Below are positions 11,427 through 29,030 of a stretch of DNA of 54,359 nucleotides, one piece after another. Each line of letters starts with the position of its first letter. Within the stretch, counting starts at the first letter, position 1. The stretch is taken from assembly GCA_025362495.1 (NCBI GenBank), contig JANYGI010000226.1, positions 1 to 54,359 of the forward strand, given 5' to 3'. The notes below the pieces were generated by a model that was not told where the DNA came from, did no database searches, and worked only from the letters and a program-made list of their open reading frames with translations. Source of the DNA: Byssovorax sp. (GTDB taxonomy: Bacteria; Myxococcota_A; Polyangia; Polyangiales; Polyangiaceae). The position numbers and the translations under genes are program-made.

Positions 11427-14366
11427 ATGACGCGATCGAGCACCCTCGCCGGCACGTTCTCCGACGAGGTGGTGCGGCTCCCCAAGGTCGAGATCTACGT
11501 CACCGACGTCTGCAACAACCGTTGCAGCTACTGCACGACGGGCTGGGAGAACACCGAGAACAAGCGGAGCACGCTGAAGAACGTGCCGCGGGAGATGATC
11601 CGCGCCCATCTCGACCAGCACTTCGCGAAGGGCGCGCGGCGCGTGGTCTTCCAGGGCGGCGAGCCCACGGTGCGCCGCGATCTGGGCGAGCTCCTCGCCG
11701 ACGCGCGGGCCGCCGGATACGAGGCGACGACGGTGTTCACCAACGCCCGCGCCGCCGCGTCGCCCATCGGCGCGCGCTGGCTCGCGTCGATGGGCGTCAC
11801 CTGGTTCCAGGTCTCGATCCAGGGCGGCACGGCCGAGGCGCACGACGCGTCGGTGGTCGCCGCGCGGGCCTTCAAGCAGACGATCGAGGGCACGCGGCGC
11901 CTCCTCGCGCTCGGGCAGCGCGTGAAGGTCAACGGGGTGCTCACGGTGCACTTGCTCGACACGCTCCGCGAGTTCGCGGCGCTGATGATCGAGCTGAAGC
12001 CCGAGGAGGTCGGCCTCGACGTGGTGCGGCCTTCGCCGGCGTTCGCGCCGGATCGCGCCAGCTACGCCGAGCTGCTCCCGCCGCTCTCGCGCTACTCGGA
12101 GGCGCTGCGCGACGCGCTGCTGTCCATGAACGCGGCGGGGATCATCGCGCGCGTCATCAGCTGCCCGCCGTGCCTCGTCCCGGGCGCCGAGCACCTCGTG
12201 TCGGAAGAGCAAGCCACGACGGTGACGCAGATCCCGAGCGGCGAGTTCATGGACAAGCTGGCGCAGCGCCGCTCGCTCCAGGTGAAGGCCGAGAGCTGCG
12301 CTTCGTGCGCCTACGACGCCACGTGCCCTGGCCTCTTCGGCCTCTACGCCGAGCAGCACGGCACGGGGGAGCTGCGCCCCGCGATGCAGCGCCGCACCAT
12401 CGAAAAGCCTCGCTCCACCGGCCCCGAGATCCCCACCATGAGGACGCAGACCATCGTCGTCACCCGCCGCTGCAACCAGGGCTGCGGCTTCTGCGATCGC
12501 GTGCAGCACGACGCGGTCGATCTCTCCGCGAGCGCCGTCGGCGACTCGGTGCGCGACGCGATCGCGAAGGGCGCGCGCACCATCGTGCTCTCCGGCGGCG
12601 AGCCCACCTTGCGCCCCGATCTCGCGGCGATCGCGCGGCGGGCGCGCGCCGACGGGGCCGCCGAGATCGTCCTCGAGACCAACGGCACGCGCATCGATTC
12701 GAAGGCCACGGCGGAGGCGCTCCGCAGCGCCGGCGTCACCGCCGTGCAGATCTCGCTCGTGACGAGCAACGTCGATCGGCACCGCGATCTCGTGGTGATC
12801 CCGCCCCCGCGCAGCGTCGAGACGCGGCCGCAGCACGTATTTCGTGGCATCCGCGCCTGCCTCGAAGCGGGCCTGCCGGTGACGATGCGGATCCCGGTAG
12901 CGCGCGGGTTGCCGCCGGCTGCAGCGCGCATCGCCGGGCTCCACGAGGCGTTCCCGGCGCTCGATCGGTTCGTGCTCGCGCCGCTCGGCTCCGGCACCGC
13001 GACGTTCCGATCCGATCAGGCGTTGAGCCGCGAAGCGCTGAGCGAGGAGCTCGAGCAGGCCTACAAGGTCGGTGATCGCTCGAAGGTCAACGTGGCGCTC
13101 GCGGCTGATTTCCCGCTGCCGCCCTGCGTGACCGACGTGCGCGGCGGGGCGCGCCGCCTCTTCGCGGGGCTCCTGCGCGACGTCGACGGGGCGCGCAACG
13201 AGGCCTGCTCGGCGTGCGCATCGTGCGCGCTCGCGCCCCGCTGCGCGGCCCAGGCGCGGCACATCGAGGCCGCCGGCGGCGCGAGCGCGGCCCGCCCGAT
13301 CGTCGACGCCTCGAGCTACTTCCGGCCAGGAAAGAGCGCGGGGAGCCGCCTCCGCGTCCTCGGCCCGGCCGAGGTCGAGACCTTCTTCCACGTCGACTAC
13401 GAGTACGACGTCGAGGCGCCCGAGCCCACGAGCCGCCTCGGCATCGTCTACCGCTGCAACCAGGTCTGCACCTTCTGCGAGCTCGCGGACATGGACACCG
13501 ATCTCGCCCCCGAGAAGGTGCGCGCGGCCATCGATCACAGCCGCGCGCGCGGCTCGCGGCGCCTGATCGTCACCGGCGGCGAGCCCACGCTGTCGCCGAA
13601 CCTCGTCGAGTACGTGCGCTACGCCAAGGACGCGGGGATGGAGAACATCGAGCTCCAGACCAACGCCGTGCTCCTCGACAAACCGGGCGTCGCCGAGGCC
13701 CTCCGCGAGGCGGGGCTCACCAGCGCCCAGGTGTCGCTGCACGGGCCCGACGCCGAGATCAGCGATCGCCTCACGGCCGCGCCGGGCACGCACAAACGCA
13801 CCCTCGTCGGCGTCGACAACCTGCTCCGCGTCGGCGTGCGGGTGCTGCTGAATCACCTCATTTTCAAGGACAACTGTCACTTGCTCGGCGAGTTCGTCGC
13901 CATGGCGGAGCGCCGCTGGGGCGAGCACCGCAAGCAGATGGTGATCCAGTTCCACTCGCCGCGAAACGAGTTCCAGGATCGGCAGGAGAGCCTGCGCCAC
14001 ATCGCCCGCTACAGCGACTACGTCGAGCCGCTCCGCGCCGCGATCGATCGGGCCCGCGCCTTCGGCTTCAACGTCCACGATCTGCAAGATCCGACCGGGA
14101 TCCCTTCGCTCTGCGTGCTCGGCGCCGACGAGCGCTACCTCGGCCCGATCCTCGCGCAGGCCGAGCGGCCGCGCCTCCACGCGTGGGAGACCGAGTGGAT
14201 CACGCGCGTCGACGCGTGCAAGACGTGTGACGTGAAAGAGGCCTGCATGGGCGTGCCGCGGCACTACCTCGCGCTCCACGGCGACAGCGAGTTCACGTCG
14301 ATCCGGCTCGCCGCGGGCAGCTCCGCGACGCGGGAGCCCGCAGGGAAGGTCGACGTTCATGGATAA
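11427..14366 (+). CDS. RS1: triple radical SAM protein (modules A-B-C)
   Basis: 979 residues with three complete radical SAM modules in one chain. Each has a CxxxCxxC cluster site and a GGEP SAM motif: A, Cys29/33/36 (CNNRCSYC) with QGGEPT; B, Cys349/353/356 (CNQGCGFC) with SGGEPT; C, Cys677/681/684 (CNQVCTFC) with TGGEPT. Each module ends in an auxiliary pattern of one Cys, ~40-60 residues, then CxxCx5C (CASCAYDATC, CSACASCALAPRC, CKTCDVKEAC), like a SPASM/twitch half. The chain could hold up to six Fe-S clusters. The start is the ATG at 11427; an upstream open stretch is non-conserved Arg-rich sequence. It overlaps RS2 by 8 bp. Chemistry and substrate are unknown. Confidence 0.9.
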   Translation: MTRSSTLAGTFSDEVVRLPKVEIYVTDVCNNRCSYCTTGWENTENKRSTLKNVPREMIRAHLDQHFAKGARRVVFQGGEPTVRRDLGELLADARAAGYEATTVFTNARAAASPIGARWLASMGVTWFQVSIQGGTAEAHDASVVAARAFKQTIEGTRRLLALGQRVKVNGVLTVHLLDTLREFAALMIELKPEEVGLDVVRPSPAFAPDRASYAELLPPLSRYSEALRDALLSMNAAGIIARVISCPPCLVPGAEHLVSEEQATTVTQIPSGEFMDKLAQRRSLQVKAESCASCAYDATCPGLFGLYAEQHGTGELRPAMQRRTIEKPRSTGPEIPTMRTQTIVVTRRCNQGCGFCDRVQHDAVDLSASAVGDSVRDAIAKGARTIVLSGGEPTLRPDLAAIARRARADGAAEIVLETNGTRIDSKATAEALRSAGVTAVQISLVTSNVDRHRDLVVIPPPRSVETRPQHVFRGIRACLEAGLPVTMRIPVARGLPPAAARIAGLHEAFPALDRFVLAPLGSGTATFRSDQALSREALSEELEQAYKVGDRSKVNVALAADFPLPPCVTDVRGGARRLFAGLLRDVDGARNEACSACASCALAPRCAAQARHIEAAGGASAARPIVDASSYFRPGKSAGSRLRVLGPAEVETFFHVDYEYDVEAPEPTSRLGIVYRCNQVCTFCELADMDTDLAPEKVRAAIDHSRARGSRRLIVTGGEPTLSPNLVEYVRYAKDAGMENIELQTNAVLLDKPGVAEALREAGLTSAQVSLHGPDAEISDRLTAAPGTHKRTLVGVDNLLRVGVRVLLNHLIFKDNCHLLGEFVAMAERRWGEHRKQMVIQFHSPRNEFQDRQESLRHIARYSDYVEPLRAAIDRARAFGFNVHDLQDPTGIPSLCVLGADERYLGPILAQAERPRLHAWETEWITRVDACKTCDVKEACMGVPRHYLALHGDSEFTSIRLAAGSSATREPAGKVDVHG

Positions 14367-16326
14367 GCGCCTGGTCGTCTCGGCCGCCTGCGCCACGCGC
14401 TGCCCCTCGTGCACCGGGTGCCACCCCGACGCGCGCGAGGCCACGCTCGATCAAGCGCGCGCGCTCCACGATGTGTCGGATCTCTTCCTCGGCGGCGGCG
14501 ACGCCACGCGCTGGCCGCACCTGGCGACGCTGCTCGCCGAGAACGCCGCGCGCCTCGATCCGCAGCGGATCTGGATCGAGGGGCCCGCCGCGGCGTTCAC
14601 GCCCGAGGTCCTCGCGTCGCTCGCGAGCGGCAAGGCGCATGGCATCCGCGTCCTGATCGAGGGCGTGGGCGAGAAGATGACGCGCCTCATGCGCGTGGGC
14701 GACGGTGAGAAGGTGATCGCCCTCGCCGAGTCGCTCGGCCTCGTCACCGAGGTGCGCCTCGCGGTGCGCCCGAAGACGTTCCCGATCGTCGTCCCGCTGG
14801 CGCGACGCCTGCGCCCGCGCCGCGTGTGGCTGGAGATCATCCGGCAAGACTGGTCGGGCCCGGCGGTGACGATGCCCGTCGAGCCGATCGATCAGACGAT
14901 GCTCACCAGCCCCAACGTCGAGTTCGCGGCGCACCGCCTCTCGCACACCGGCTACCTGCCGCCGTGCGTGCTGGCGAAGACCTGGAGCGTGCGCTCGGGC
15001 GCCTGGCGCGCGACGCTCGGCGATCGCCCCACGCCCAACCGCGCGCTGCCGATCTGCGACGAGTGCGCGCTCAACCGACGCTGCCAGTGGAACGACGTCG
15101 GCGCGCTCAGCGACGAGGCCCGCGCCGAGGCGAAGCCGATCGCCAACCTGCGCGAACGACGCCGCGCGACCGAGCTGCCGGTGCCGGAGATCATCGTCAA
15201 GCGCCGCCCCGAGACCGAGGTGGTGTGCGTGACGCCGTGGACGACGATCGAGATCGTCGATCCCGACGGCAAGGCGCGGCAGTGCTGCTCCACCTGGACC
15301 ACCGGCGATCGCGGCGTCGTGCTCGGCTCGTCCATGCTCGACGTGTGGAACGGCCCCGGCTACCAGCAGGCCCGCCGCACCATGGCCAGCGCCGCCCTCG
15401 GCGATCTCTGCATGCCGATCTGCTCGCGCCTCCACGACCGGAAATTCGAGGAGAGGCGCTTCAAGATCCAGAGCGGCAGCGACGTGTTCGTGAAGAACCA
15501 GATCCTGCTCGCCGACGAGATCGCCCAGCGCAAAGAGGTGCTCGAGGCGCTCCCCCTTCGCCTGGCGATCTGCCCGAGCACCTACTGCAACTACAACTGC
15601 ATCATGTGCGATCACGGCCGCTCGCCGCGGCGCGATTTACCCGAGTCGATCTGGGAAGAGCTGCCGCGCTTCCTGCCGACGCTGCAGTCGCTGACGCTGC
15701 TCGGAGGCGAGCCGCTCGCCAACCCGCACACCTGGCAGTTCCTGCGATCGTTCGACGTCGAGAAGTACCCGGACGCGTCGCTCGATTTGGTGACCAACGG
15801 GAGCCTGCTCACCGAGCACGCGCTCAAGCACATCCAGAAGTGCGCGCTCGGCGACGTGATCATCAGCTTCAACGCCGGCACCGCCGAGGCCTACGAGCGC
15901 GTGCAGCGCGGCATCGCGCTCGAGCAGGTGCTGAAGAACGTCGACGCGCTGATCCGTTTCCGCGAGTCGCGGCCGTGGTGGTTCGGGATCACGCTGAGCT
16001 TCGTGATCCAGCCCGCGGCGGCCCACACGATGATCGCCTTCGGCGAGATCGCCCACGCCCGCAATCTGCGGATCCGGCTGATGGCGCTGAACCCGGAGAA
16101 CCACGAGGGCCTCGATTTTTACGAGGATCCGGAGGAGGTCGCGCGCATTCTCGAGCACGTCGATCGCTTCGTCGCGTGGGTGACGGCGGTGCGGCCGGAG
16201 TGGCTGCCCGAGGTGCTCGCGGCGCGCACGGCCATCCTCGGCGAGGCGGCGAGCCGCGTCGCGCGGCCGGCGGCGCTGGTGCCCCTGCGGCGGTCGGCGT
16301 CGGATCCCCGGCCGGTGGGAAACTGA
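14359..16326 (+). CDS. RS2: two radical SAM modules with an internal SPASM-like segment
   Basis: 655 residues. The N-terminal module keeps CxxxCxxC (Cys11/15/18, plus Cys21) but has GGGDAT where GGEP is expected, and an auxiliary set PPC...CDECALNRRC at ~200-235. A SPASM-like stretch (~290-375) reads CVTPWTTIEI, then QCCSTW and CMPICSRLHD. A normal radical SAM module follows, with Cys410/414/417 (CNYNCIMC) and LGGEPL. A SPASM segment placed before its radical SAM domain is unusual; the two could work together or the segment could belong to the degenerate module. The ATG overlaps the RS1 stop by 8 bp, so translation is coupled. The TGA stop lies inside a perfect palindrome. Confidence 0.88.
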   Translation: MDKRLVVSAACATRCPSCTGCHPDAREATLDQARALHDVSDLFLGGGDATRWPHLATLLAENAARLDPQRIWIEGPAAAFTPEVLASLASGKAHGIRVLIEGVGEKMTRLMRVGDGEKVIALAESLGLVTEVRLAVRPKTFPIVVPLARRLRPRRVWLEIIRQDWSGPAVTMPVEPIDQTMLTSPNVEFAAHRLSHTGYLPPCVLAKTWSVRSGAWRATLGDRPTPNRALPICDECALNRRCQWNDVGALSDEARAEAKPIANLRERRRATELPVPEIIVKRRPETEVVCVTPWTTIEIVDPDGKARQCCSTWTTGDRGVVLGSSMLDVWNGPGYQQARRTMASAALGDLCMPICSRLHDRKFEERRFKIQSGSDVFVKNQILLADEIAQRKEVLEALPLRLAICPSTYCNYNCIMCDHGRSPRRDLPESIWEELPRFLPTLQSLTLLGGEPLANPHTWQFLRSFDVEKYPDASLDLVTNGSLLTEHALKHIQKCALGDVIISFNAGTAEAYERVQRGIALEQVLKNVDALIRFRESRPWWFGITLSFVIQPAAAHTMIAFGEIAHARNLRIRLMALNPENHEGLDFYEDPEEVARILEHVDRFVAWVTAVRPEWLPEVLAARTAILGEAASRVARPAALVPLRRSASDPRPVGN

Positions 16327-16342
16327 GCATGCTCAGTTTTTT
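16321..16342 (+). terminator. Palindromic terminator containing the RS2 stop codon
   Basis: AACTGAGCATGCTCAGTT is a perfect 18-bp palindrome followed by T-rich sequence (TTTTTT at 16337-16342). It folds as a 7-bp stem with a CATG loop and looks like an intrinsic terminator. The RS2 stop TGA (16324-16326) is part of the stem. RS3 begins only 39 bases further, so this may act as a partial terminator or attenuator within the RS1-RS2-RS3 transcript. Confidence 0.65.
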
Positions 16343-16380
16343 GCGAGCGCTGAAATCAGCCAGGAATCGCGGGTAATTCG

Positions 16381-18222
16381 ATGCGATCGGACCGGGTCTT
16401 CACCAACCTCACGTGCAACCAGAACTGCACGTACTGCACCGATCGACGCCCGACCGAGCAGCGCGCGTTCATCCTCGGCGGCGCGGTGCGGGCGCGCATC
16501 GACGCGGCGCTCCGGGGCGGCGCGAGCGAGCTGGTCCTCACCGGCGGCGAGCCCACCCTGCGCGCCGATCTGCCCGCGCTCGTGGCGCACGCGCGCGCCG
16601 GCGGCGCGGCGGCCGTCGTCCTCGAGACCAACGCGACCACCCTCGATGCCGCGCACGTGACGGCGCTGCGCGACGCGGGCCTCGCGTCGGCGCGGGTGAA
16701 CCTCTCCGGCTGGGGCGAGGCCCTCGACGAGGTGACGCGCGATCCCGGCGGCCACGCGCGCACGCTCGCTGGCCTGCGCGCGCTGCTCGACGCGGGCCTC
16801 CCCGTGGAGATCTCGGTCGTGGTGATCCGCTCGACGCTGACGATGCTCGCCGATCTGCCCGAGCGCCTCGCCGAGGCTCTGGGCGAGCAGATTTCAGGGG
16901 TGAAGACCATCGTGGTGCGCACGCCGGTCGCGAGCCCCGACGTCTCCGAGCTGGTGTCGTACGAGGAGGCCGCGGAGGCCATCAGCGCGCTCGAAGCGTC
17001 GGCGCGCCGCGTCGGCGTGGCCGTGAAGCTCGGCCCCGACAGCGGCCCTCCGCCGTGCGCGTTCCCGCACCCGAACCGCGTAGCGCACCTGTTCTCGATG
17101 ACGCCGGGCACCGCGCTGCGCAGCGATCACCGGCAGCTCGAGGTCTGCTCGCAGTGCCAGATGAAGGATCGCTGCTCGGGGATCGCGGTCTCGTACCTCG
17201 CGCGCCACGCGCCCCCGCCGATGCGGCCGATCACCGAAGATCGCGTGCGCCGCCGCCTCTCGCTCATCGCCACGGTGGAAGAGCAGATCGCGCGCGAGCT
17301 CTCGCAGCCGAACCGCTTCGAGCGCCCCGACACCGGCGTCGTCGAAGAGCACATCATCCGCGTCAACTTTCACTGCAACCAGGCCTGCCGCTTCTGCTTC
17401 GTCTCGACGCACCTCCCGCAGGCGGGCGACGAGGCGGTGCGCCGTGCGATCCTCGCGGCCGGCGAGGCGGGCGCGCGGGTGATGCTCTCGGGCGGCGAGC
17501 CGACGCTCAACGCCAACCTCGTCGAGTACGTGAAGCTTGCGAAAGCGAGCAATCCGTTCCCGGTCGGCCTCCAGTCGAACGCCATCCGCCTCGCCGATCC
17601 GGCGCTGACGCGGGCCCTGGTCGAGGCCGGGATCGAGGAGGCGTTCATCTCGCTCCACGGCACGACGGCGGAGATCTCCGACGCCATCACCGAGGCCCCG
17701 GGGACGTTCGCGAAATCGGTGATCGGGATCGACAACCTCCATCGCGAGCACGCGGTGTTCCTGATCTTGAACTTCGTGATCCACGAGAAGAACATCGACG
17801 ATCTGGTGCCTTACGTGCGCCTCGTCGCGTCGCGCTGGCCGCGCGCGTACGTGAACATCTCGTTCGTGGCACCCTCGAGTGACGTGGTCCCGAAGGAGAA
17901 GGCGCTCGTGCCGCGCTACGCCGACGCGCTCCCGAGCCTGGCCGTCGCCGTGAAGGAGGCGAAGGCGCTCGGCCTGCAAATTGGCGGGTTCGAGTCGATG
18001 TGCGGCATCCCGCTCTGCCTCGTGCCGACCGAGCTGTCGTCGTACTTCGAGCTCAGCGACATTCCCGAGGGCTTCGATCGCGGCGAGTTCGTGAAGACGC
18101 CCGCGTGCCAGTCCTGCGAGCTGCGGACGAAGTGCTACGGCCTGCGGCGCGGGTATCTCGCGCTCCATGGCGACGACGAGCTGCGGCCGGTGCACGCGCC
18201 GGAGGCGATCGCGACGAGCTGA
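16381..18222 (+). CDS. RS3: double radical SAM protein (modules B'-C')
   Basis: 613 residues with two full modules. The first has Cys12/16/19 (CNQNCTYC), TGGEPTLRADL and the auxiliary set PPC...CSQCQMKDRC. The second has Cys332/336/339 (CNQACRFC), SGGEPTLNANLVEYV and the auxiliary set PLC...CQSCELRTKC, ending in RRGYLALHGDDEL. Module by module it matches the B and C parts of RS1: compare SLHGTTAEISDAITEAPGT with SLHGPDAEISDRLTAAPGT, and YLALHGDDEL with YLALHGDSEF. It therefore looks like a duplicate of RS1 lacking module A. It follows RS2 after a 54-bp gap with a palindromic terminator. The SD is weak. Confidence 0.9.
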   Translation: MRSDRVFTNLTCNQNCTYCTDRRPTEQRAFILGGAVRARIDAALRGGASELVLTGGEPTLRADLPALVAHARAGGAAAVVLETNATTLDAAHVTALRDAGLASARVNLSGWGEALDEVTRDPGGHARTLAGLRALLDAGLPVEISVVVIRSTLTMLADLPERLAEALGEQISGVKTIVVRTPVASPDVSELVSYEEAAEAISALEASARRVGVAVKLGPDSGPPPCAFPHPNRVAHLFSMTPGTALRSDHRQLEVCSQCQMKDRCSGIAVSYLARHAPPPMRPITEDRVRRRLSLIATVEEQIARELSQPNRFERPDTGVVEEHIIRVNFHCNQACRFCFVSTHLPQAGDEAVRRAILAAGEAGARVMLSGGEPTLNANLVEYVKLAKASNPFPVGLQSNAIRLADPALTRALVEAGIEEAFISLHGTTAEISDAITEAPGTFAKSVIGIDNLHREHAVFLILNFVIHEKNIDDLVPYVRLVASRWPRAYVNISFVAPSSDVVPKEKALVPRYADALPSLAVAVKEAKALGLQIGGFESMCGIPLCLVPTELSSYFELSDIPEGFDRGEFVKTPACQSCELRTKCYGLRRGYLALHGDDELRPVHAPEAIATS

Positions 18223-18249
18223 TCGCGCCTCGAAACCGAGGCGATTTCA
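18220..18249. terminator. Palindromic hairpin joining the stop codons of RS3 and RS4
   Basis: A 30-bp imperfect palindrome begins with the RS3 TGA and ends with the reverse complement of the RS4 TGA. The inner 7-bp stem is CGCCTCG/CGAGGCG with an AAAC loop (18226-18243). The arrangement suits a bidirectional terminator between convergent genes. Confidence 0.55.
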
Positions 18250-20940
18250 GTCGTCGGGCAGCGCGCGAACCAGGACGCCGAGCGCGACGCGGGCGGCCGT
18301 GGGGAGGCTCTCCGGCGCGTCGAGATCGATCGCCCATCCACCGCGGCGGATCGTGTGCGCGCGCGCCGGATCGTGGGCGCGGACGCGCACCGTGAAGCGG
18401 TGCTGCGCGTTGGCGAGGACGATCTCCCGTGCGGCGCCGCGAGCGTCGATCGAGAGGATCCGGTACTCGTGCACGCGCACGCCTGGGCGGAACGTCGCGG
18501 GGAGCGGTCGCGCCGACGTCGAGGCCTCGCGCGCGGGCTCGGCGCTCGGAGGCGATCCGAGGGCGTTCACGGCCGCGGGCGCGAGCTCTCCGCCGGGGTT
18601 CGTGAGCAGCGGAAGCGGCGTCTGGATCTCGCGGATCGAGCCGTCGCGCAGCGTGAAGCGCACCCGCGTCGGCGAGAGCTCGATCGCCGCGATCTGCGCC
18701 GCGTCGACGCCGAGGTGCCGAGCCTCGTCGAGCGCGAGGGCCTCGTCGACGACGAAGCGATCGCCGCTCCACGCGCCCTGGAGCTCGACGCGGCGCTGGT
18801 AGTCGATGAACAGGACGGGGCGCTCCATGCGCGCCCGCGCGCGCTCCGCCGCGGGCGCGTCGATCGCCGCGAGCGCTTCGAGGATGTGCTCGCCGACGCG
18901 GATCGAGCCCGCGCACGAGGGCGAGCACGGGTGATGGGACAGCAAGCGGACGCCCCCGACGCGGTGGAGCAGCGGGTGCAGCGCCTCGTCGGGCGCGCGG
19001 CGAAACGTGAGCCGTTCGTTGTCGAGGTTGTCGCCGCGGGTGCGCTGCCCGAGGAACGCCTGCACGCAGCAGGGCGGGTAGCCCATGAGCGCGCCCATCG
19101 CCTCGACAGCCGCCTTGCCCTGCGCCGACGCGTGCGCGCGCTGCGCGGCGAGCACCTCGTCGAGCGACGCCTGGTCCTTCGCGACGGCGACGATCGCGTA
19201 GTCGGCGCCGCGCTCGTGCGCGTCGCGGCCTTGCTCGAGGCCGTGCAGCTCGACGATGTCGGCGACGAGGCCCATCGCGCGGTAGGCGCGGCAGAGCCCG
19301 TCGGCCTCGGCCCGCAGCACCGCTTCCTTCAAGCAAGCGCGCTTGTGACCGCGGGCGATCAGCTCGATCTCGGGATCGACGCCGAGCAGCGCCGCGTCGA
19401 TCCGCAGCACGCCTCCGGGCCCCGCGCCGCCCCACGCGCGGAGCGCCTGGCGCAGCGGGAGCCACGCGACGTCGGGCGCGGCGGCGAGCCCCGGATAGCG
19501 CGTGACGAGCCGGGTCGCGGCCTCGATCAGATCGGCGTCGGCGAGCGAGCACGCCCGCCCGAAATCGTTGGCGGCGCGGAAGATCGCCTCCATCGCTTCG
19601 TGCTGGAATCGCCACGGGACGCTGGCGTCGTAGCCCTGTTCCGCGGCGCGATCGGGCCGCCCTTCTTCGAACGCGGAGACGAGCAATCCATCCTTCGCGG
19701 CGAGCGCGTGGAGCGGCACGCGCGGGTAGAGCCGGAGGCGCGTGCGGATGGCCTCCGAACGAAACTCTTCGAAGCGGACGGCGCGCATCCACCGCGCGTT
19801 CTCGAGCAAGGACTCGGGCGTCGTCCATGGCGTGAAGAGCACGATCCCGTGGGCGCGATAGCGCCCGTACTCGAACGATCGCGGGAAGCGCGCGCCGAGC
19901 TCGCGGACCTTCTCGATGGCCGCCGCGTTGTCGGCGACGCTCACGCCCTTGTTGAAGAGATCGAGGTGGAACTGGTCGAAGCTCTCGAAGCCGACGAGGT
20001 AGAGATGAAGCACGCTGCCGTGCTGCTCGGCTAGCGCGGCGGCCTCGGCGACGGCGGTGTCGGCGAACTCCAGCAGCCAGTCGACGCGGCTCTTGAAGAG
20101 CAGCTCGACCGGGGCCATCGAGGGATCGCCCCGCAGCGCGCGGAAGAAGCCGGGCAGGTACGGATGCGGCCGCTCGTCGGTGAGCAGAAGCTCGCGAACG
20201 GAAGGGTTTTGCGCGCGCAGGCTCCGGAGCTGCGCGAGCCAGGAGTCGAGCACGGCGGCCTCGGTGGGCGCCGCGAACGAGCCGGTGTTGTCGAGGCAGA
20301 AGGTGCAGCCCTTCATCTGCAGCTTCGATTGATCGGCGCCGAGCCCCGCGAAGATCGGGTTCTTCCCCGCGTCGAGGAGGAACGGGCAGCCCGACGCCGG
20401 CCCCGAGATCGTCGGCCGCGCGGCGAGCTCGCCCTCGATCGATCCCGGCAACGCAGAGGGCGCGAGGACCCGCAGCCGGCTCGGCGCGGTCGCGGCGCGC
20501 GCTCGCAGCTCGGCTGGCTTCACCTTCTTGAACGCGGCGGGCGAGGGGTTGTCGTCGCCGTCGAGCAGGCGCTTGAGGCCCTCGAAATCGAGCACGTGAT
20601 CGAAATGATCGTCGAGCGCGGCGCGCACGCCCGACGTGAGGCGGACGATGCGCGCGTCGGCGCGCAGGGCGCCGCGGAGCACGGTGATCGTCGCCTCGTC
20701 CCAGACCCGCGCCAGGACCGCGAGATCGAAGGAGCCGCGGCTCACGAACTCGGCGAGGCGCGCGTGCCACGCGACCGCTCCGCCGGGCTCGGCGGCGAGG
20801 ACGCTGCGCACCAGCGCGACCTCGTGCCCCTCGACCTCGAGCTCGGCGGCGAGCGCCCCGAGCGAGGCGTCGTCCTGGAACTGATCGGACCGCGCATGCA
20901 GATCGAGCAGCGCGACCGACCGCCGCGGGGCCGCGCTCAC
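18247..20940 (-). CDS. RS4: atypical radical SAM protein fused to a GYPxCC domain
   Basis: 897 residues. Residues 1-125 form a Rossmann-like domain similar to the B12-binding half of cobalamin radical SAM enzymes, but without DxHxxG. The iron-sulfur site is atypical: SGCPFLLD (Cys185), then KGCTFC (Cys212/215), spacing C-x26-C-x2-C. A TIM-barrel-like region follows to about 430. From ~500 to 720 comes a second domain with MGYPPCCVQAF (near 620) and HHPCSPSCAGS (near 670), the same signature as the gene upstream at 21032. I think this is DUF483-like. The last ~75 residues resemble a small beta-rich domain also seen in RS5-RS7. The start is GTG 20940 with AGAGG seven bases before it; TTG 20955 is weaker. 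Confidence 0.75.
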   Translation of the reverse strand: MSAAPRRSVALLDLHARSDQFQDDASLGALAAELEVEGHEVALVRSVLAAEPGGAVAWHARLAEFVSRGSFDLAVLARVWDEATITVLRGALRADARIVRLTSGVRAALDDHFDHVLDFEGLKRLLDGDDNPSPAAFKKVKPAELRARAATAPSRLRVLAPSALPGSIEGELAARPTISGPASGCPFLLDAGKNPIFAGLGADQSKLQMKGCTFCLDNTGSFAAPTEAAVLDSWLAQLRSLRAQNPSVRELLLTDERPHPYLPGFFRALRGDPSMAPVELLFKSRVDWLLEFADTAVAEAAALAEQHGSVLHLYLVGFESFDQFHLDLFNKGVSVADNAAAIEKVRELGARFPRSFEYGRYRAHGIVLFTPWTTPESLLENARWMRAVRFEEFRSEAIRTRLRLYPRVPLHALAAKDGLLVSAFEEGRPDRAAEQGYDASVPWRFQHEAMEAIFRAANDFGRACSLADADLIEAATRLVTRYPGLAAAPDVAWLPLRQALRAWGGAGPGGVLRIDAALLGVDPEIELIARGHKRACLKEAVLRAEADGLCRAYRAMGLVADIVELHGLEQGRDAHERGADYAIVAVAKDQASLDEVLAAQRAHASAQGKAAVEAMGALMGYPPCCVQAFLGQRTRGDNLDNERLTFRRAPDEALHPLLHRVGGVRLLSHHPCSPSCAGSIRVGEHILEALAAIDAPAAERARARMERPVLFIDYQRRVELQGAWSGDRFVVDEALALDEARHLGVDAAQIAAIELSPTRVRFTLRDGSIREIQTPLPLLTNPGGELAPAAVNALGSPPSAEPAREASTSARPLPATFRPGVRVHEYRILSIDARGAAREIVLANAQHRFTVRVRAHDPARAHTIRRGGWAIDLDAPESLPTAARVALGVLVRALPDD

Positions 20941-21031
20941 GCCCGGCCTCTGCAACGCGAGGACGCGCGCTCGCGCTCTCTCCGGGGGTGAACGCGCATC
21001 ACGACCACTATCGCCGTGGCCGCGCGGTCCG

Positions 21032-22033
21032 TCAACACGCCGCGCCGAAGGGCAGGAGCATCGCGTCCGGGGCGCGGAGCACCGGCTCGCCGCCCGCGTG
21101 GATCACACCGTCAACGATGGACACCGAGCCCCGCGCTTCGAGGAGCGCGACCAGCCGCGCGGCGGCGTCGACCTCGATCTCGCCGAGCCCGGCGTCGGGG
21201 TGACGATCGCGCGCCGTCGGCCACGCGCGATCGACGCGCACCTCGTGGCCGTCGAAGGCGCCGACGATCGAGACCTGCACGTCCTCCAGCACCAGGAGCC
21301 GGTGCGCCGCGTGGGCCGCGTCGATCGCGGCGACGAAGCGCTCGTGGCGGCAGTCGGGCGGGCAGCTCGCCCGCGGCGCGCGGCCCGTCGCGCCCGTCGC
21401 GGCGCCCGCGAGGAACTGCCCGTGCTTCGTTGCGATGTGATCGGCGACGGCGTCGGCGAAGGCCCGCGAGAGCGCGCACGAGAACGAGCACGGCAGCCAC
21501 GAGAGGTAGTGGAAGATCGCGAGGTCGACGGTGTTGAGCCGCGGCGCGAAGACGCCGCCGGACGCCCGCGCGGCATGAGCGAACGCGTCGACGTTGCGCC
21601 GCGGCGTCGGGATCTCGAGGTACGCCTCGACACAGCAGCGGGGGTAGCCGAGCAGGCGGCCGAGCTCGTGATCGTGATCGGGCGCGCCCTCGCAGCGCAC
21701 GGCCTCGTCCACGCGGCGCGGATCGCGCCCGACGAAGAGCACCGTCCCCTCGGTCGAGGGCAGCGCCGCGCGGTGCGCCGCCACGCCGACGGCGAGCCCG
21801 AGCGCCTCGAAGCGCGCGCGCGCGGCGGCGAGCTGCGACCGCGGGAGGATCTGACGGATCAGCGGCTTGATCCCCGCGTACAGCGCGACCTCGTCGGCCT
21901 CACCGCTCCCGAGCGCATACGCGAGGGGGCGTGATCGCGCCTCGACGCGGGCGGCGTCGACGCGCGCGGCGTCCACGAAATCGAGGGCCGCGGCGAGATC
22001 GTGCGGCGTTTCGCAGAGCGGGAGCACAGCCAT
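21032..22033 (-). CDS. GYPxCC / PCSxSC domain protein (DUF483-like)
   Basis: 333 residues, no radical SAM motif. Signatures are LLGYPRCCVEAYL near residue 130, WLPCSFSCALSRAFAD near 180 and CPPDCRHERF near 225. The same two Cys signatures, in the same order, form the C-terminal part of RS4, so these genes share a module of roughly 200-250 residues. I recall GYPxCC proteins as DUF483, a family without a firm function. The cysteine pairs could bind iron or zinc or a cluster. It lies 91 bp upstream of RS4 on the same strand and is divergent from RS5. ATG 22033 is chosen because the longer open frame upstream only mirrors RS5. Confidence 0.7.
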   Translation of the reverse strand: MAVLPLCETPHDLAAALDFVDAARVDAARVEARSRPLAYALGSGEADEVALYAGIKPLIRQILPRSQLAAARARFEALGLAVGVAAHRAALPSTEGTVLFVGRDPRRVDEAVRCEGAPDHDHELGRLLGYPRCCVEAYLEIPTPRRNVDAFAHAARASGGVFAPRLNTVDLAIFHYLSWLPCSFSCALSRAFADAVADHIATKHGQFLAGAATGATGRAPRASCPPDCRHERFVAAIDAAHAAHRLLVLEDVQVSIVGAFDGHEVRVDRAWPTARDRHPDAGLGEIEVDAAARLVALLEARGSVSIVDGVIHAGGEPVLRAPDAMLLPFGAAC

Positions 22034-22121
22034 GATCGGGGCGACGGCAACGTAGCCCCGCGGAGCGCGCAGCGGAAGCGCGGCCGGGGCCAGGACGGCG
22101 CGCGCCTCGTCGCCGCGATGA

Positions 22122-22147
22122 GGTATCCTCGCGGCGACGAGGATGCC
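22122..22147 (+). promoter_or_regulatory. Hairpin covering the ribosome binding site of RS5
   Basis: GGTATCCTCG (22122-22131) pairs with CGAGGATGCC (22138-22147) across a 6-base loop. In RNA all ten pairs form, one of them G-U. The right arm includes GAGGA (22139-22143), the only good SD for the TTG start at 22151. The structure could hide the SD until it is melted or bound by a protein. If translation starts at ATG 22118 instead, the repeat would be coding. Confidence 0.5.
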
Positions 22148-22150
22148 CCT

Positions 22151-23479
22151 TTGAGCGCCGATTTCCCGAGCGACGTCGAGCTCCCCAAGGTGGAGATCCA
22201 CGCCACCGACGCCTGCAACAACCGCTGCAGCTTCTGCACGACGGGCTGGCTCATGCGCGAGAAGGGGGAGGATCTCGGCCACCCGCCCCGCGCGATCCTC
22301 CGCATGCAGCTCGAAGAAGCGTACGCGAAGGGCGCTCGCCGCGTGCTCTTCCAGGGCGGCGAGCCCACCCTCCGACGCGACCTCGGCGATCTCCTCGCCG
22401 ACGCTCACGCCGTCGGCTACCAGGCGACGACGATCTTCACCAACGCGCGGATGGCAGCCTCGCGAGCGGGCGCCCGCTGGCTCGCGGCGATGGATGTGAC
22501 CTGGTTCCAGATCTCGATCCAGGGCGGCACAGCCGAGGCCCACGACGCATCGGTGGGCGCGAAGGGCGCGTTCGAGCAGACGGTGCTGGGCGCGCGCCGG
22601 TTGATCGAGGCCGGGCAGCGGGTGAAGATCAACGCGGTCTTGACGGTGCACCTGCTCGACACGTTCCGCGAGCTCGCCGCGCTGATGATCGATCTCTGCC
22701 CCGAGGAGGTCGGCCTCGACACCGTGAAGCCGTCGAATGCGTTCGAAGAGAATCGCGAGAGCTACGCCGCGCTGCTCCCGCGCATGTCGGGCTACTCCGA
22801 CGCGATCCGCGACGCGATGATCGCCATGGATGAAGCGGGGATCGTCGCGCGGTTGACGAGCTTCCCGGCGTGCCTCGCGCCCGGCGCGAAGCACCTGCTG
22901 GCCGAGGAGGCGGGCACCACGCAGACGCAGCAGCACCGCGGCAACCTCGTCGACAAGCACCGGTGGAAGCGCTCGCTCCAGGTGAAGGGCGAGCGCTGCG
23001 GCGAGTGCGCGTACGACGCGACCTGCGGCGGTGTGTACGCGCCCTACGCGGCGCTCCACGGCGTCGGTGAGCTGGTGCCGCTCGCGGAGCGAACCGACCC
23101 GCCGACGGGCCGCCCACGCCATGCGCCCGACTCACCGTTGACCCGCGCGCTGCGGGCGATGCTCGTGCGCGGCGCGCCCGCGGCGATCGGCGTGCGCGAC
23201 GTTCGGCGCTTGCCCGACGGCTCGCACGAGCTCGCGTGCTTCGCGCCGTCGGGCGAGTCGACCGTGCTGATCGCGGCGCGGAGCGAGGCCCCGGCGTTCG
23301 TTCACACCGCGCGCTTCAGCGTGCGCTACCGCGTCGGTGCGAGCGGGGCGCGCCCCGACGCGCGGCTGCTCGCGGCGATCATGAAGCGGCTCGAGCGCGC
23401 CGAGGACTACCAGCGGGCCCACGAAGAGCCTGCACCCCCGCCGCCGCACGACCTCGCGCCGGGCGCCGATCAAAAATGA
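22151..23479 (+). CDS. RS5: single radical SAM protein, paralogue of RS1 module A
   Basis: 442 residues. The radical SAM domain has Cys22/26/29 (CNNRCSFC) and QGGEPTLRRDLGDLLADA. The auxiliary set is PAC...CGECAYDATC, then YAALHGVGELVP. It follows module A of RS1 almost line by line: LPKVEI, WFQISIQGGTAEAHDASV, KINAVLTVHLLDTFRELAALMIDL, CPEEVGLD. The DNA is also closely similar, which points to a fairly recent duplication. Beyond residue ~315 it carries an extra ~90-residue C-terminal part that resembles the N-termini of RS6 and RS7. The start is TTG 22151 (GAGGA seven bases before it, conserved frame begins here); ATG 22118 is the alternative. Confidence 0.85.
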   Translation: MSADFPSDVELPKVEIHATDACNNRCSFCTTGWLMREKGEDLGHPPRAILRMQLEEAYAKGARRVLFQGGEPTLRRDLGDLLADAHAVGYQATTIFTNARMAASRAGARWLAAMDVTWFQISIQGGTAEAHDASVGAKGAFEQTVLGARRLIEAGQRVKINAVLTVHLLDTFRELAALMIDLCPEEVGLDTVKPSNAFEENRESYAALLPRMSGYSDAIRDAMIAMDEAGIVARLTSFPACLAPGAKHLLAEEAGTTQTQQHRGNLVDKHRWKRSLQVKGERCGECAYDATCGGVYAPYAALHGVGELVPLAERTDPPTGRPRHAPDSPLTRALRAMLVRGAPAAIGVRDVRRLPDGSHELACFAPSGESTVLIAARSEAPAFVHTARFSVRYRVGASGARPDARLLAAIMKRLERAEDYQRAHEEPAPPPPHDLAPGADQK

Positions 23480-23493
23480 GCAAGCTCAGTTTT
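23472..23493. terminator. Palindrome formed by the stop codons of convergent RS5 and RS6
   Basis: TGAGC-AA-GCTCA: the left TGA (23477-23479) is the RS5 stop and the right TCA (23486-23488) is the RS6 stop on the other strand. A-rich sequence before and TTTT after extend the stem and give T-tracts in both directions. It is a near copy of the element at 16321 (TGAGCATGCTCAGTTTT). Confidence 0.6.
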
Positions 23494-24679
23494 GCGCTCC
23501 GGGCCGCCGCAGCGCCACGAGCCCCCGCGTCCCCACCGCGCGCTCCACCGTCGCTGCGATGCCCGGGCAGCCCGATTTGAGTTCGCACCCGCCGCAGATC
23601 GCCGCGGGATAGCTCACGTGAAGGCGCTCGTCGGTGCGATCGAGCCGGGCTCCGCCGCGCGCTCGCATCGCCTCTGGCAGCACGCAGAGCGGCAGCGCAT
23701 CGACCGTCACGCCCGCCGTCGCGATCGGCGCGAGCGCCGCGCGCAGCTCGTCGAGCGGCGCGACGACGGCGTCGAACCCGTCACCGACCATCGAGTCTGG
23801 CGCGTACGCGAGCAGCGTGTGGCCGCCGTCGGTCAGCTCCGCGGCGAGCGCCGTGATCGCCGCGAGCTCCGCGAGGACCGGCCGGATCAGCGGCGTCACC
23901 AGCTCGACCCGTACGCCCGCCGCGCGCATCGCGGACACGGCCTCGCGCACGGCCCCGAGCGCGCCGTCACGACCGTTGATGCGATCGTGCGTCTCCTCCG
24001 AGGCGCCGAGCAGCGCGGTGATGTACTTGCGCAGCCCTGCGCGCGCGAGCTCGGGCGCCCGCCGCGCGGTGACGCCGCGCCGCGGCGGACCGATCACCGC
24101 GACGTGACGCCCTCGCTCCGACGCCATCGCCACCCAGGCGACGATGCGCGGGTGCGCGAGGGCGTCGTCGCCGGTGAACAGGATTGCCCCTGCTGCCGCG
24201 GCGATCGCGCGCTCCACGTCCTCGTCCGAGCCTCGCGGGGTGCGGTCCGCGATCGGCCGCCGCGAGATGTGACAGAAGACGCAGGCGCGATCGCAGACCG
24301 AGGGCACGTCGATGATCGTGGCGGGCCCTTCGCCTCGCGGTTCCGCGGCGATCCGCGCGCGCTCCGCCGCCTTCTCCTTCACCACCCGCTCGCGCGCGAC
24401 CACGTCGGGATCGAAATCATCCGCGATCCTCGGCCCGAGGAGATCCACCGCGGCGCGGAGCAGCGCGCGCCCGCGCGGGTCGGCGGGGTTGCCGAGCACG
24501 CGCAGCGCGATGGGCCCGAGGCGCACCGGCGCGTCGTCGGTGCGCGCGACGATTTCGAGGCGGAACGGGCGGCGTGAATCGCCGAGCAGCACCCCGTTCG
24601 CCGACCGCCTCACCGCGCTGCCGAGCCCGAGCCTCGCGCGCTCGGCGTCGTCGAGCCACCACCACGGTCGGTCACCCAT
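23486..24679 (-). CDS. RS6: radical SAM protein with altered SAM motif
   Basis: 397 residues. The N-terminal ~100 residues (after MGDRPWWWLDD) look like a small domain shared with RS5 and RS7. The radical SAM site is Cys129/133/136 (CDRACVFC). The usual GGEP is replaced by FTGDDAL, so SAM binding may differ. The C-terminal auxiliary cysteines read PLC...CGGCELKSGC as in the rest of the cluster, supporting a second cluster. The ATG at 24679 has an excellent GGAGG six bases before it; an upstream basic extension is ignored. It is divergent from RS7, with 91 bp between them, and convergent with RS5. The substrate is unknown. Confidence 0.8.
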   Translation of the reverse strand: MGDRPWWWLDDAERARLGLGSAVRRSANGVLLGDSRRPFRLEIVARTDDAPVRLGPIALRVLGNPADPRGRALLRAAVDLLGPRIADDFDPDVVARERVVKEKAAERARIAAEPRGEGPATIIDVPSVCDRACVFCHISRRPIADRTPRGSDEDVERAIAAAAGAILFTGDDALAHPRIVAWVAMASERGRHVAVIGPPRRGVTARRAPELARAGLRKYITALLGASEETHDRINGRDGALGAVREAVSAMRAAGVRVELVTPLIRPVLAELAAITALAAELTDGGHTLLAYAPDSMVGDGFDAVVAPLDELRAALAPIATAGVTVDALPLCVLPEAMRARGGARLDRTDERLHVSYPAAICGGCELKSGCPGIAATVERAVGTRGLVALRRPGAQN

Positions 24680-24758
24680 GCGCTGCCTCCGCGGCGAAAC
24701 TGCCACGGATCGCGCCGCGCGCCTCCGCAAAGGCGACGTCCCGCCGCGGCGTTTTCAG

Positions 24759-24764
24759 TATAGT
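24759..24764 (+). promoter_or_regulatory. -10 box placing RS7 as a leaderless gene
   Basis: TATAGT in otherwise GC-rich DNA ends seven bases before the GTG start codon of RS7. If it is a -10 element, the transcript would begin at or next to the GTG and have no leader. No SD is present, which fits. A matching -35 is not obvious. Confidence 0.45.
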
Positions 24765-24770
24765 GGCCGC

Positions 24771-25928
24771 GTGGACCTCCGGGCTCACCTCCTCGAGCTG
24801 CTCGCGCCGCTCCGGCCCGGCGACGAGCTGGTGCCCGGCGCGCGCCTGCTCGGTATCTCCACCGAGATCGGCTTCTGGCTCTCGCTCGAGCTCGCGGCGG
24901 GCGAGGTGCAGATCGAGGTCTCGCCCCTCGGCGAGGGCCGCTTCGCCGCGCGCACCGCGCAGTTCGCGATCTCGTACCGTGACGAGGGCGGCCGCAACCG
25001 CATCGACTCCGCGCTCGGTCTCGCGCTCTGTCGCGCCGTCGCCGAGCGCGTGGGCCGCAACGAGGCGCGCGTCGCCGGAGCACTCGCGCAGCGCACGCGC
25101 GACGCCGTCCCCGCGGCCCGCATCCGCGAGGTGCGCGTCGAGAGCCTGCTGGAGACGGCGGGCCACGGGGCCGAGCGCTTCTTCAAGCTCTCGCCCTACG
25201 CGGGCTGCCTGATCGGCTGCCGCTATTGCTACGCGCAGACGCCGATGAGCGCCGTCCGCCGCCTCGAGATGCTGCCCGAGGCGCCATGGGGCTCGTACGT
25301 CGACGTGCGCGTCAACGCGGCCGAGGTGCTCCGGGGCGAGCTCGCGACGCTCGCGCCGCGGCCGATCAAGTTCTGCCCGATCCTCAGCGATCCCTACCAG
25401 GCGGTCGAGGCGCGATTTGCCGTCACGCGCGCCTGCCTCGAAACCATCGCGGCCGCCGATCGCGTCTGGCCGACGCTGCTGCTGACGCGGAGCAAGCTCG
25501 TCACGCGCGACACCGCGCTCCTCGCCTCGCTCCCGTCGGCGTGGGTCGGCGCTTCGATCCCCAGCATCGACGACGAAACGCGCCTTCATTTCGAGCCTCG
25601 CGCCGCCTCGATCCCCGAGCGCCTCGCGTCGCTGGCCACGCTCCGCGCCGCGGGCGTGCGCACCTTCGCCGTCGTGCAGCCGCTGCTGCCCGGCTCGATC
25701 GACGAGCTCGCCGACGCGCTCGCGGAGGTCGTCTCGTCGGTGAGCATCGACGTGCTCCGCGGCGAAGAGGCGGCCTCCGGCGACTTCGACGATCCGCGCT
25801 ACGCCGAGTCGCGCACCGACGCCTGGCAGCAGGCCCGCGCGGCCGAGCTCGTCGCGGCGCTCACGGCGCGCGGCGTCGCGGTATGGCCCGGCGAGCTCCC
25901 GCCCGAGCTGCTCGCCGCCACGTCCTGA
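24771..25928 (+). CDS. RS7: radical SAM protein of the SplB/Rv2578c type
   Basis: 385 residues. The N-terminal ~100 residues form a non-catalytic domain (LSLELAAGEVQIEV...ISYR) resembling parts of RS5 and RS6. The radical SAM domain starts with SPYAGCLIGCRYCYA (Cys146/150/153), then FCPILSDPYQAVEARFAVTRACLE, LLLTRSKLVTRD and SIPSIDDETRLHFEPRAASIPERL. These are hallmarks of the SplB-like/Rv2578c family distantly related to spore photoproduct lyase. Unlike the others it lacks GGEP and the auxiliary CxxCx5C set, so it is probably unrelated in origin though in the same locus. The GTG start has no SD but has a TATAGT just upstream. DNA repair is only a family-based guess. Confidence 0.82.
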   Translation: MDLRAHLLELLAPLRPGDELVPGARLLGISTEIGFWLSLELAAGEVQIEVSPLGEGRFAARTAQFAISYRDEGGRNRIDSALGLALCRAVAERVGRNEARVAGALAQRTRDAVPAARIREVRVESLLETAGHGAERFFKLSPYAGCLIGCRYCYAQTPMSAVRRLEMLPEAPWGSYVDVRVNAAEVLRGELATLAPRPIKFCPILSDPYQAVEARFAVTRACLETIAAADRVWPTLLLTRSKLVTRDTALLASLPSAWVGASIPSIDDETRLHFEPRAASIPERLASLATLRAAGVRTFAVVQPLLPGSIDELADALAEVVSSVSIDVLRGEEAASGDFDDPRYAESRTDAWQQARAAELVAALTARGVAVWPGELPPELLAATS

Positions 25929-25935
25929 TCGCGGT

Positions 25936-26973
25936 TCACTCGGCGGCGGCCGCGTCGTCGCGCGGGGTCGCGAGGACAGGCACGAGCTCGTCCCAGCCGA
26001 AGCGCCGCAGGTAGTTGTTCCAGACGCCCTCGCAGGCCGTCGTGTACTTGCACGTCGCGCACTCCGCGCGCTTCTCGCGCTGCGCGTCGTCGAGGTCCTC
26101 GCGCTTGACCATCACGAGGCCGCGGCCCTTGCCCTGCTGCGCGCGATCTTCCTTCTGCGTCTCGGGCAGCTTCGCCTGGGTGTCGAGATCGAAGTGCCGA
26201 TACCGCTCGACGTAGCCGCGGTTGAAATCGGGGATCTTCTCCGTCGTGCAGAGCGGGATATCGACGAGGAACGCCATCGGGCGGGGCTCGCCCACCTCGG
26301 CGCAGAAGCGCTCGAACGTGGCCGCGATCTCGGTGTAGCGCGGGAAAATTTGCTCGAAATAGGTGTTCGCCCGGCCGTTGGCCTGCATCACGTTGAACAC
26401 CACCTGATCGACGCCGTGCGAGCGGAGGAAGCGATAGATGTCGAGCAGGTGAGGGAGGTTGCGCTCGGTGACCACCGTCGAGGTGTGGAGCTCGACCCCG
26501 AAGCGCTTGAGCTTCGTCACCGAGTCCAGCCCGGCGACCGTCTGCTCGAAGCTGTCGGGCGTGCGCGTGAGCCCCTCGTGGAGCTTCTTCGTGTGGCCGT
26601 GAATCGAGATGTAGAACCGATTCATTCCGGCCTTCGCCAGGGCCGCAGCATAAGGCAGGTGGCTGAGCCGACGGCCATTGGTCATCGTGCTGATGCGGTC
26701 GTAGCCGAGCTTGCGGGCCTGGGCGACGAAGTCCGCCAGCTCGGGGCGCGTCGTCGGCTCGCCCGAGGTGAAGCACACCTCCTCGGCCCCGCGGCTCTCT
26801 TCGAGGATCCAGCTCACCCGCTCCGGCGTCATCGCCGAGTTGTTGATGTAGCGGCCGTCGCGGTCTTCCTCCATGCAGAAGACGCAGTTGTTGTTGCACA
26901 CCGCGCCGATCGAGATGTGCACCCGCTCGGCCTGCTTCGCGACCCGCTCGACGATGCTCTGCTCTTCGACCAT
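25936..26973 (-). CDS. RS8: single radical SAM protein with auxiliary cysteines
   Basis: 345 residues. Cys26/30/33 (CNNNCVFC) and TSGEPTTRPELADF define the radical SAM core. The barrel continues with STMTNGRRLSH and YISIHGHTKKLHEGLT. The auxiliary set is IPLC...CATCKYTTACEGVWNNYLRRFGWDELVPV, the same Cys...CxxCx5C plan as RS1, RS3, RS5 and RS6. The ATG at 26973 begins the conserved part and has GGAAG close before it; an upstream 47-residue extension looks non-coding. It ends eight bases after the convergent RS7. It is divergent from the kinase gene, with 146 bp between them. The substrate is unknown. Confidence 0.85.
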   Translation of the reverse strand: MVEEQSIVERVAKQAERVHISIGAVCNNNCVFCMEEDRDGRYINNSAMTPERVSWILEESRGAEEVCFTSGEPTTRPELADFVAQARKLGYDRISTMTNGRRLSHLPYAAALAKAGMNRFYISIHGHTKKLHEGLTRTPDSFEQTVAGLDSVTKLKRFGVELHTSTVVTERNLPHLLDIYRFLRSHGVDQVVFNVMQANGRANTYFEQIFPRYTEIAATFERFCAEVGEPRPMAFLVDIPLCTTEKIPDFNRGYVERYRHFDLDTQAKLPETQKEDRAQQGKGRGLVMVKREDLDDAQREKRAECATCKYTTACEGVWNNYLRRFGWDELVPVLATPRDDAAAAE

Positions 26974-28652: not shown

Positions 28653-28659
28653 CGCTGTC

Positions 28660-29022: not shown

Positions 29023-29030
29023 GGAGCCTG

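Follow-up and report, generated by a model that had tools for sequence, protein, structure and literature searches.

A dense radical SAM cluster in Byssovorax sp. as the probable accessory wing of an expanded His-Xaa-Ser peptide pathway

What kind of pathway would bring together eight radical S-adenosylmethionine (rSAM) genes in a single cluster? This question is raised by a 54,359-nucleotide stretch of Byssovorax sp. DNA, hereafter the window, which is one contig (C203) of a 10.8 Mb genome assembled in 240 contigs. A preliminary description had noted eight such genes (RS1 to RS8) with about 12 modules in 15.5 kb, together with one protein bearing a GYPxCC motif, and knew of no described pathway with this content; it suggested that the cluster makes an unusual modified molecule or modifies a protein or RNA encoded elsewhere. 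Judging from the comparisons reported here, the cluster probably serves as accessory wing to an enlarged His-Xaa-Ser (Hxs) pathway for ribosomally synthesized and post-translationally modified peptides (RiPPs), with its substrate HxsA4 supplied from other contigs. The target encoded elsewhere is, accordingly, probably the HxsA4 peptide.

The density of the cluster was borne out. Genome-wide, 51 matches to PF04055 were found at E ≤ 0.001, and 11 of these lie within positions 11493-26916 of the window, against about 0.07 matches expected per 15.5 kb under an even spread. Nine of the 11 individually exceed the Pfam cut-off of 29.5 bits, the two below it being RS4 (22.0 bits) and RS7 (26.1 bits). 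A twelfth module, undetected by Pfam, is the N-terminal half of RS2, which carries the sequence CATRCPSC. Three HxsC-like twitch rSAM modules make up RS1 (11427..14366, + strand, 979 amino acids, PF04055 three times), and two make up RS3 (16381..18222, +, 613 amino acids). Between them, RS2 (14359..16326, +, 655 amino acids, PF04055 and PF13186) also has two modules, with a divergent N-terminal rSAM/twitch region, a central SPASM/twitch region, and a C-terminal rSAM region; its score against NF033640 (91.6 bits) is under the cut-off of 170. RS4 to RS8 each contain a single module.

The identity of the pathway is indicated by RS8 (25936..26973, - strand), a His-Xaa-Ser system rSAM maturase that scored 608.5 bits against NF038332 (HxsC4, cut-off 500) and was the sole match in the genome at E ≤ 1e-60, although against TIGR03977, the older HxsC model, it stayed below cut-off (84.1 vs. 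267.9 bits). Since RS8 is HxsC4, and since in Minicystis and Archangium these genes run on without a break into HxsA4, HxsB, and HxsD, the view that no described pathway matches these genes was rejected. HxsC4 was likewise the best NCBIfam model for RS1 (205.7 bits), RS3 (143.9 bits), and RS5 (85.4 bits), all below the cut-off of 500, and judged by sequence these three are relatives of HxsC4, not members.

All five families of the Hxs RiPP system, i.e., HxsA4 (NF038313), HxsB (TIGR03978), HxsC4 (NF038332), HxsD (TIGR03976), and HxsD-like (NF038315), are represented over their cut-offs in this genome. A genome-wide search recovered three HxsA4 of 92 amino acids on contigs C41 and C99, with a leader ending in AQHC followed by (SHG)13, i.e., 13 HxS repeats, and a terminal Ser-Trp. 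All six precursors examined, including these three, matched NF038313, and the alternative precursor model TIGR03979 gave weak matches only (best 21.8 bits, cut-off 121.65). Contig C41 carries HxsA4, HxsB (548.8 bits, cut-off 370), HxsD-like (62.6 bits, cut-off 41), HxsD (61.5 bits, cut-off 50), a conserved 157-amino-acid protein, and a double rSAM gene. Contig C99 carries two HxsA4 along with four rSAM genes, the latter all within its initial 10 kb; the product of one of them (L058 6247-8106, - strand, a family f4 rSAM/twitch protein) ends in a methyltransferase domain (PF13649, 38.2 bits, cut-off 27). The five rSAM genes beside the Hxs core on C41 and C99 are of kinds found in other Hxs loci, and the whole comes to about 19 rSAM modules in 14 genes (12 modules in the window, three on C41, and four on C99). 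These parts are spread over three contigs, not side by side.

Two side observations concern these contigs. The end of C41 (L057 1-146) shares 146 bp, at 98.6% identity, with a part of C99 that adjoins a putative transposase gene; this gene (L058 242-1687) has edge repeats and adjoins the HxsA4 copies. The assembly may therefore have broken at an insertion element inside an Hxs locus, which is compatible with, and no proof of, adjacency of C41 and C99. A second, separate Hxs-type locus on C33 (L056 155-3111) encodes HxsD (55.0 bits, cut-off 50), HxsB (594.2 bits, cut-off 370), and then a 369-amino-acid rSAM protein; no SHG precursor was found in its 14 kb stretch.

The window genes and the Hxs core adjoin each other in relatives. 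Genes there were called by a simple codon-usage script, which misses genes: in the window it overlooked GYP2 and RS7, in L109 and G300 it overlooked GYP2, which tblastn recovered there, and some small precursors came to light in a six-frame scan. In Minicystis rosea DSM 24000 (G249, CP016211.1), one stretch of about 25 kb holds the Hxs core together with RS1 to RS4 and the stand-alone GYPxCC protein GYP2. Its first part encodes HxsA4, HxsB, HxsD-like, HxsD, a double rSAM gene, and two more rSAM genes, and its second part RS4, three unnamed open reading frames, RS3, GYP2, RS2, RS1, and HxsC4; identity to the window is 82% for RS1 and 84% for RS3. Two Archangium metagenome-assembled genomes (L107 with L128, and L109 with L129) combine RS1 to RS4, GYP2, and an RS5-type gene with HxsD, HxsD-like, HxsB, HxsA4, and HxsC4. 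In G185, HxsC4, HxsA4, HxsB, and HxsD stand together with RS1 to RS4 kinds, RS1 to RS4 are present in G048, and the parts are spread over about 40-65 kb in G299 and G300. An RS7 homologue (55%) adjoins GYP2 and HxsD in G300, and RS6 adjoins RS5 in G183 and G300. GYP2 homologues occur in Minicystis, both Archangium genomes, G299, and G300.

These neighborhoods came from three surveys. Relatives of RS4 at E ≤ 1e-10 were found in 38 of the 183 genomes of the order, nine of them strong (at least 486 bits, the window genome's own included), and the neighborhoods of the eight other strong and six weaker relatives were compared, one of them just 3 kb long. A scan of contigs for RS2 gave 13 loci, of which L117 is doubtful (29% over 133 residues) and L113 and L116 are one assembly. 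HxsC4 neighborhoods were compared for 20 of 30 genomes: by counts whose family names derive from three proteins of one locus, HxsB is present in 11, HxsD in 11, and HxsD-like in 10 of the 20, and an (SHG)n repeat peptide in 15 (all except L034, L038, L048, L049, and L050). Overall, RS1 to RS4 are kept together in several genera, usually with GYP2, and the gene sets hold together in other Polyangiales and in other myxobacteria. The scatter that the preliminary description named as a ground for giving up a single system was seen in part, with RS4 alone in G201, RS2 alone in L112, and no RS1 found in G183, which has RS2 to RS6. Dispersal like that of the window genome is also seen in relatives from its family, since G101, G115, and G075 have HxsA4, HxsB, and HxsC4 widely separated or on separate contigs.

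Co-occurrence across genomes points in the same direction. Within the class, HxsC4 was detected in 30 of 144 sampled genomes at E ≤ 1e-60 (29 over cut-off) and HxsB in 45 (44 over cut-off), and HxsB was present in all 30 HxsC4 genomes (Fisher p 4e-20, uncorrected for kinship). All 15 RS2/RS4 handles have HxsB and 12 have HxsC4; they represent 14 genomes, G184 and G306 sharing the same coordinates, and leave out the genome of L117. Among genomes with weaker RS4 relatives, HxsB occurs in 26 of 29, compared with six of 20 genomes without RS4, the latter drawn from 145 of the order and all in the window's family (p 3e-5, uncorrected for kinship). HxsA4 was found in 13 of the 16 genomes searched, the exceptions being G048, G145, and G146. 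As a separate observation, the HxsA4-like leader (loci L121, L122, and L123) ends in AQHMSHASHG in G307 and G308 and in AQHVSHG in G304, where AQHCSHG would otherwise stand; these three genomes are also without HxsC4.

Most of the window modules are related to HxsC4 itself. In a tree of 36 rSAM modules, 19 Hxs-type-locus rows were set apart by a branch supported at 93/89, slightly under the program's star level (95/80, bootstrap/SH-aLRT). Their side includes RS1 (three modules), RS3 (two), the N-terminal half of RS2, RS5, and RS8, along with 11 rows from outside the window (five from C41 and C99, one from C33, and five from relatives, including two HxsC4), so that eight of the 12 window modules group with HxsC4, as expected of the related set first proposed. 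Across the branch are three window modules (RS6, RS7, and the C-terminal half of RS2), both HxsB, the first half of the double gene, and all 11 remaining rSAM rows. The canonical CX3CX2C motif is present in 11 of the 12 window modules, RS4 having a displaced version, and nine carry CxxCx5C preceded by another cysteine. The latter pattern had been considered private to the cluster; it is widely shared within it and not private, since CxxCx5C is also present in HxsB, HxsC4, and many other rSAM proteins of Hxs loci. HxsC (TIGR03977) and twitch-SPASM maturases likewise combine CX3CX2C with a C-terminal Cys...CxxCx5C, whereas in the window such modules are fused two or three in a row and only RS8 exceeds the HxsC4 cut-off.

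Duplication and fusion are both visible in these genes. RS5 (22118..23479, + strand), one twitch rSAM module with a C-terminal extension, is 65% identical to module 1 of RS1. In L109, module 1 is separate from the other two modules and 76% identical, and the window RS1 is therefore the three-module version, with RS5 a paralogue of its first module. The C-terminal half of RS2 and RS4 form one gene in L114 (7234-11034) and L115 (7226-11080), and an RS5-type gene is fused to RS6 in L107 (16666-18795); these fusions hint that RS4 and RS2, and likewise RS5 and RS6, may be physical partners.

The most divergent enzyme, RS4 (18247..20940, - strand, 897 amino acids), consists of a Rossmann-like N-terminal domain, an rSAM barrel, and a C-terminal GYPPCC domain. 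Its cysteine motif is C-x26-C-x2-C, and C-x24 to 31-C-x2-C was found in all 19 homologues covering the motif (the 20th is truncated); CX3CX2C is absent from both RS4 and its homologues. Displacement of this motif has a precedent in QueE (CX14CX2C). An AlphaFold model built from 10 sequences (predicted local distance difference test, pLDDT, 80.3) has low confidence in part of the cysteine loop, residues 216-223 being under pLDDT 50. By VIA-align, residues 5-546 matched OxsB with Z 15.5 over 391 residues, at a root-mean-square deviation (rmsd) of 15.3 that reflects differently placed domains; the barrel matched AprD4 with Z 12.7 (245 residues, rmsd 3.7), and the N-terminal domain matched a corrinoid protein with Z 10.1 (115 residues, rmsd 3.1). 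MiaB, RimO, and AprD4, none of which is known to depend on cobalamin as MgmA and TsrM do, also reached Z 12-13. A Foldseek search of the PDB returned low-TM (template modeling) matches to unrelated folds at the top, and a profile search retrieved no PDB chain at E 0.1. On its predicted structure, RS4 reads as having the fold of a cobalamin-type rSAM enzyme, i.e., a Rossmann-like domain plus an rSAM barrel as in OxsB, with the first cysteine displaced. It differs from OxsB by its motif and its fused GYPxCC domain, and its cobalamin binding is only putative.

This fused domain is the second GYPxCC domain of the window, where one such protein had been reported. The first is GYP2 (21032..22033, - strand), a DUF483 protein with GYPRCC and PCSxxC and four cysteines conserved in the alignment. 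GYP2 narrowly exceeds the PF04467 (DUF483) cut-off of 25 with 26.3 bits, and the RS4 domain remains under it (18.3 bits). Of 20 RS4 homologues, 13 have a CC...CxxxC arrangement in the GYP domain, the other seven lacking the domain, not covering it, or differing. Pfam gives the function of DUF483 as unknown, and a literature search found no paper on the family by title. The GYP2 model is only moderately confident (pLDDT 70.5), and Foldseek retrieved nothing for it below E 0.001, the best neighbor being 2guk (E 0.06), a protein of unknown function.

Several observations weigh against assigning the cluster to the Hxs pathway. The window itself was found to contain no precursor, HxsB, or HxsD, so that its link to Hxs rests on relatives, and the co-occurrence statistics take no account of kinship. 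In the tree, RS6, RS7, and the C-terminal half of RS2 lie outside the HxsC-like side, on long branches that leave the places of RS2, RS6, and RS7 unsure. The Minicystis stretch yielded no homologue of RS6 or RS7 and has RS5 only as module 1 of RS1. Loci L110, L114, and L115 contain RS2/RS4 kinds (and RS3 in L110) with no Hxs core within 10 kb, no further RS gene accompanies the RS2 of L112 over that distance, and the lone RS4 of G201 is far from its Hxs core. Among genomes with RS2/RS4 handles, G304, G307, and G308 were without HxsC4, and G048 showed no HxsA4. For RS4, response-regulator domains matched the N-terminal part with Z 9.9, nearly equal to the corrinoid match, which makes its cobalamin binding a guess.

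These exceptions could mean that RS1 to RS7 and the GYPxCC proteins belong to a pathway of their own, acting on a small molecule, a cofactor, or another protein, and that it travels with Hxs because the two are needed in the same circumstances. Such a pathway would account for the RS2/RS4 kinds of L110, L114, and L115, which have neither RS1 nor HxsC4 close by, for the dispersed parts in the window genome and G201, and for a predicted RS4 fold in common with OxsB and AprD4, enzymes that act on small molecules. We consider it unlikely, given HxsB in every one of the RS2/RS4 handles, the grouping of two-thirds of the window modules with HxsC4, and the interleaving of these genes with the Hxs core in Minicystis and Archangium.

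A second alternative accepts the Hxs assignment and holds that many modules are non-catalytic, serving as iron-sulfur, electron-transfer, or scaffold subunits that feed HxsB and HxsC4, with the multi-module fusions acting as a relay and not as an assembly line. The divergent N-terminal module of RS2 would suit such a role, as would several Hxs-locus proteins (families f34 and f4) that have two CxxCx5C and one CX3CX2C. Retention of CX3CX2C in all window modules except RS4, nine individual matches over the Pfam rSAM cut-off, and purifying selection make it quite improbable. The ratio of nonsynonymous to synonymous substitution rates (dN/dS) against Minicystis was 0.19 for RS1, 0.17 for RS2, 0.16 for RS3, 0.21 for RS4, 0.37 for GYP2, and 0.26 for RS8, and these six genes are therefore maintained. 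Finally, mixed strands and the affinity of RS7 to a different rSAM family might suggest that the rSAM genes are unrelated, share no role, and are either decaying or were gathered by horizontal transfer. This reading was rejected as very improbable, given open frames, dN/dS of 0.16-0.37, two kinds of gene fusion, and conserved sets in Minicystis, Archangium, G299, G300, G185, G183, and G048.

The remaining rSAM genes of the cluster are RS6 (23486..24679, - strand), an rSAM/twitch protein, and RS7 (24678..25928, + strand), an rSAM protein whose nearest models, PA0069/Rv2578c, scored 92.9 bits, under the cut-off of 360. Gene starts were re-set from the reading of frames for GYP2 (22033), RS5 (22118), RS6 (24679), and RS7 (24678), and an ATG was confirmed at the first three; the RS7 start is taken from the frame reading. 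Outside the cluster, the third gene upstream of RS1, on the opposite strand (8545-9330, -), encodes a Cupin_8/JmjC-type protein (138.5 bits), by sequence a possible hydroxylase candidate, with a 38% identical relative on C99 (L059 3947-4717) and none among the other loci compared. Flanking the cluster, positions 27120-33340 encode a Ser/Thr protein kinase and a set of cytochrome c oxidase/SCO1 proteins, whose genes look like ordinary neighbors, and for neighboring GDSL and desaturase genes no relative was found in the other loci compared.

With the cluster read as a wing of the Hxs pathway, a route can be outlined; we infer in it that RS1 to RS7 would act on HxsA4, and its order of steps, use of cobalamin, and chemistry are all meant conditionally. 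What the analysis establishes directly is gene content, family membership of the core parts, co-localization and co-occurrence, fusions, phylogeny, and the predicted fold of RS4. HxsD and HxsD-like would present the HxsA4 leader, and HxsB and HxsC4 (RS8) would, on the most economical view, carry out the common Hxs chemistry by making the initial radical modifications on the repeats. Further oxidations or cross-links on the repeated Ser, His, and Gly could then come from RS1, RS2, RS3, RS5, and RS6, most of whose modules fall with the HxsC-like twitch rSAM enzymes. RS4 with its GYPxCC domain, partnered by RS2, might catalyze a step that uses B12, for example C-methylation; the first half of the C41 double gene would perhaps add a cobalamin-dependent step too, and the C99 methyltransferase another methylation. 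Cross-links or oxidations combined with C-methylation, as the specific chemistry, are a tentative proposal that we regard as rather more likely to be wrong than right.

The Hxs system was reportedly first described by Haft and Basu. HxsB and HxsC are described as putative maturases, with reference to Haft and Basu, in one text (PMC9062424). The core is already named, and its expansion appears to be the new part. In the window genome, this core is split over contigs and its precursor is an SHG repeat, its two maturases are extended to about 19 rSAM modules by seven window genes besides HxsC4 and five on C41 and C99, and GYPxCC proteins and a cobalamin-rSAM-like enzyme are added. No account of such an rSAM expansion was found by title or opening of the abstract, in a search that mostly did not extend to subscription papers, nor was any literature found on histidine-rich repeat precursors with radical SAM enzymes in Myxococcota. 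The available text of the Minicystis genome paper lists radical SAM (70 members) among over-represented families and does not mention this locus (PMC8436480).

Taken together, these results portray a myxobacterial Hxs system grown into a very large rSAM ensemble that probably acts on a very simple repeat substrate, in a pathway that has curated family models and is known yet chemically unsolved, the accessible portions of the texts found to name it giving neither product nor chemistry. In its boldest form, the proposal is that about 19 rSAM modules, encoded by 14 genes, all work on one (SHG)n peptide, that the set arose for the most part from an HxsC-like ancestor through duplication and fusion, that it is joined by a new class of cobalamin-type rSAM enzyme with a displaced C-x24 to 31-C-x2-C motif fused to a four-cysteine GYPxCC domain, and that the product is a hypermodified poly-histidine natural product whose structural type would be new and which might be active toward metals or in redox reactions; we see this as a real possibility, short of an expectation. 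RS4 offers a variant rSAM cluster motif for study, and because Minicystis rosea DSM 24000 carries most of the system as one locus, the product and the division of labor among the sister rSAM enzymes are directly testable.

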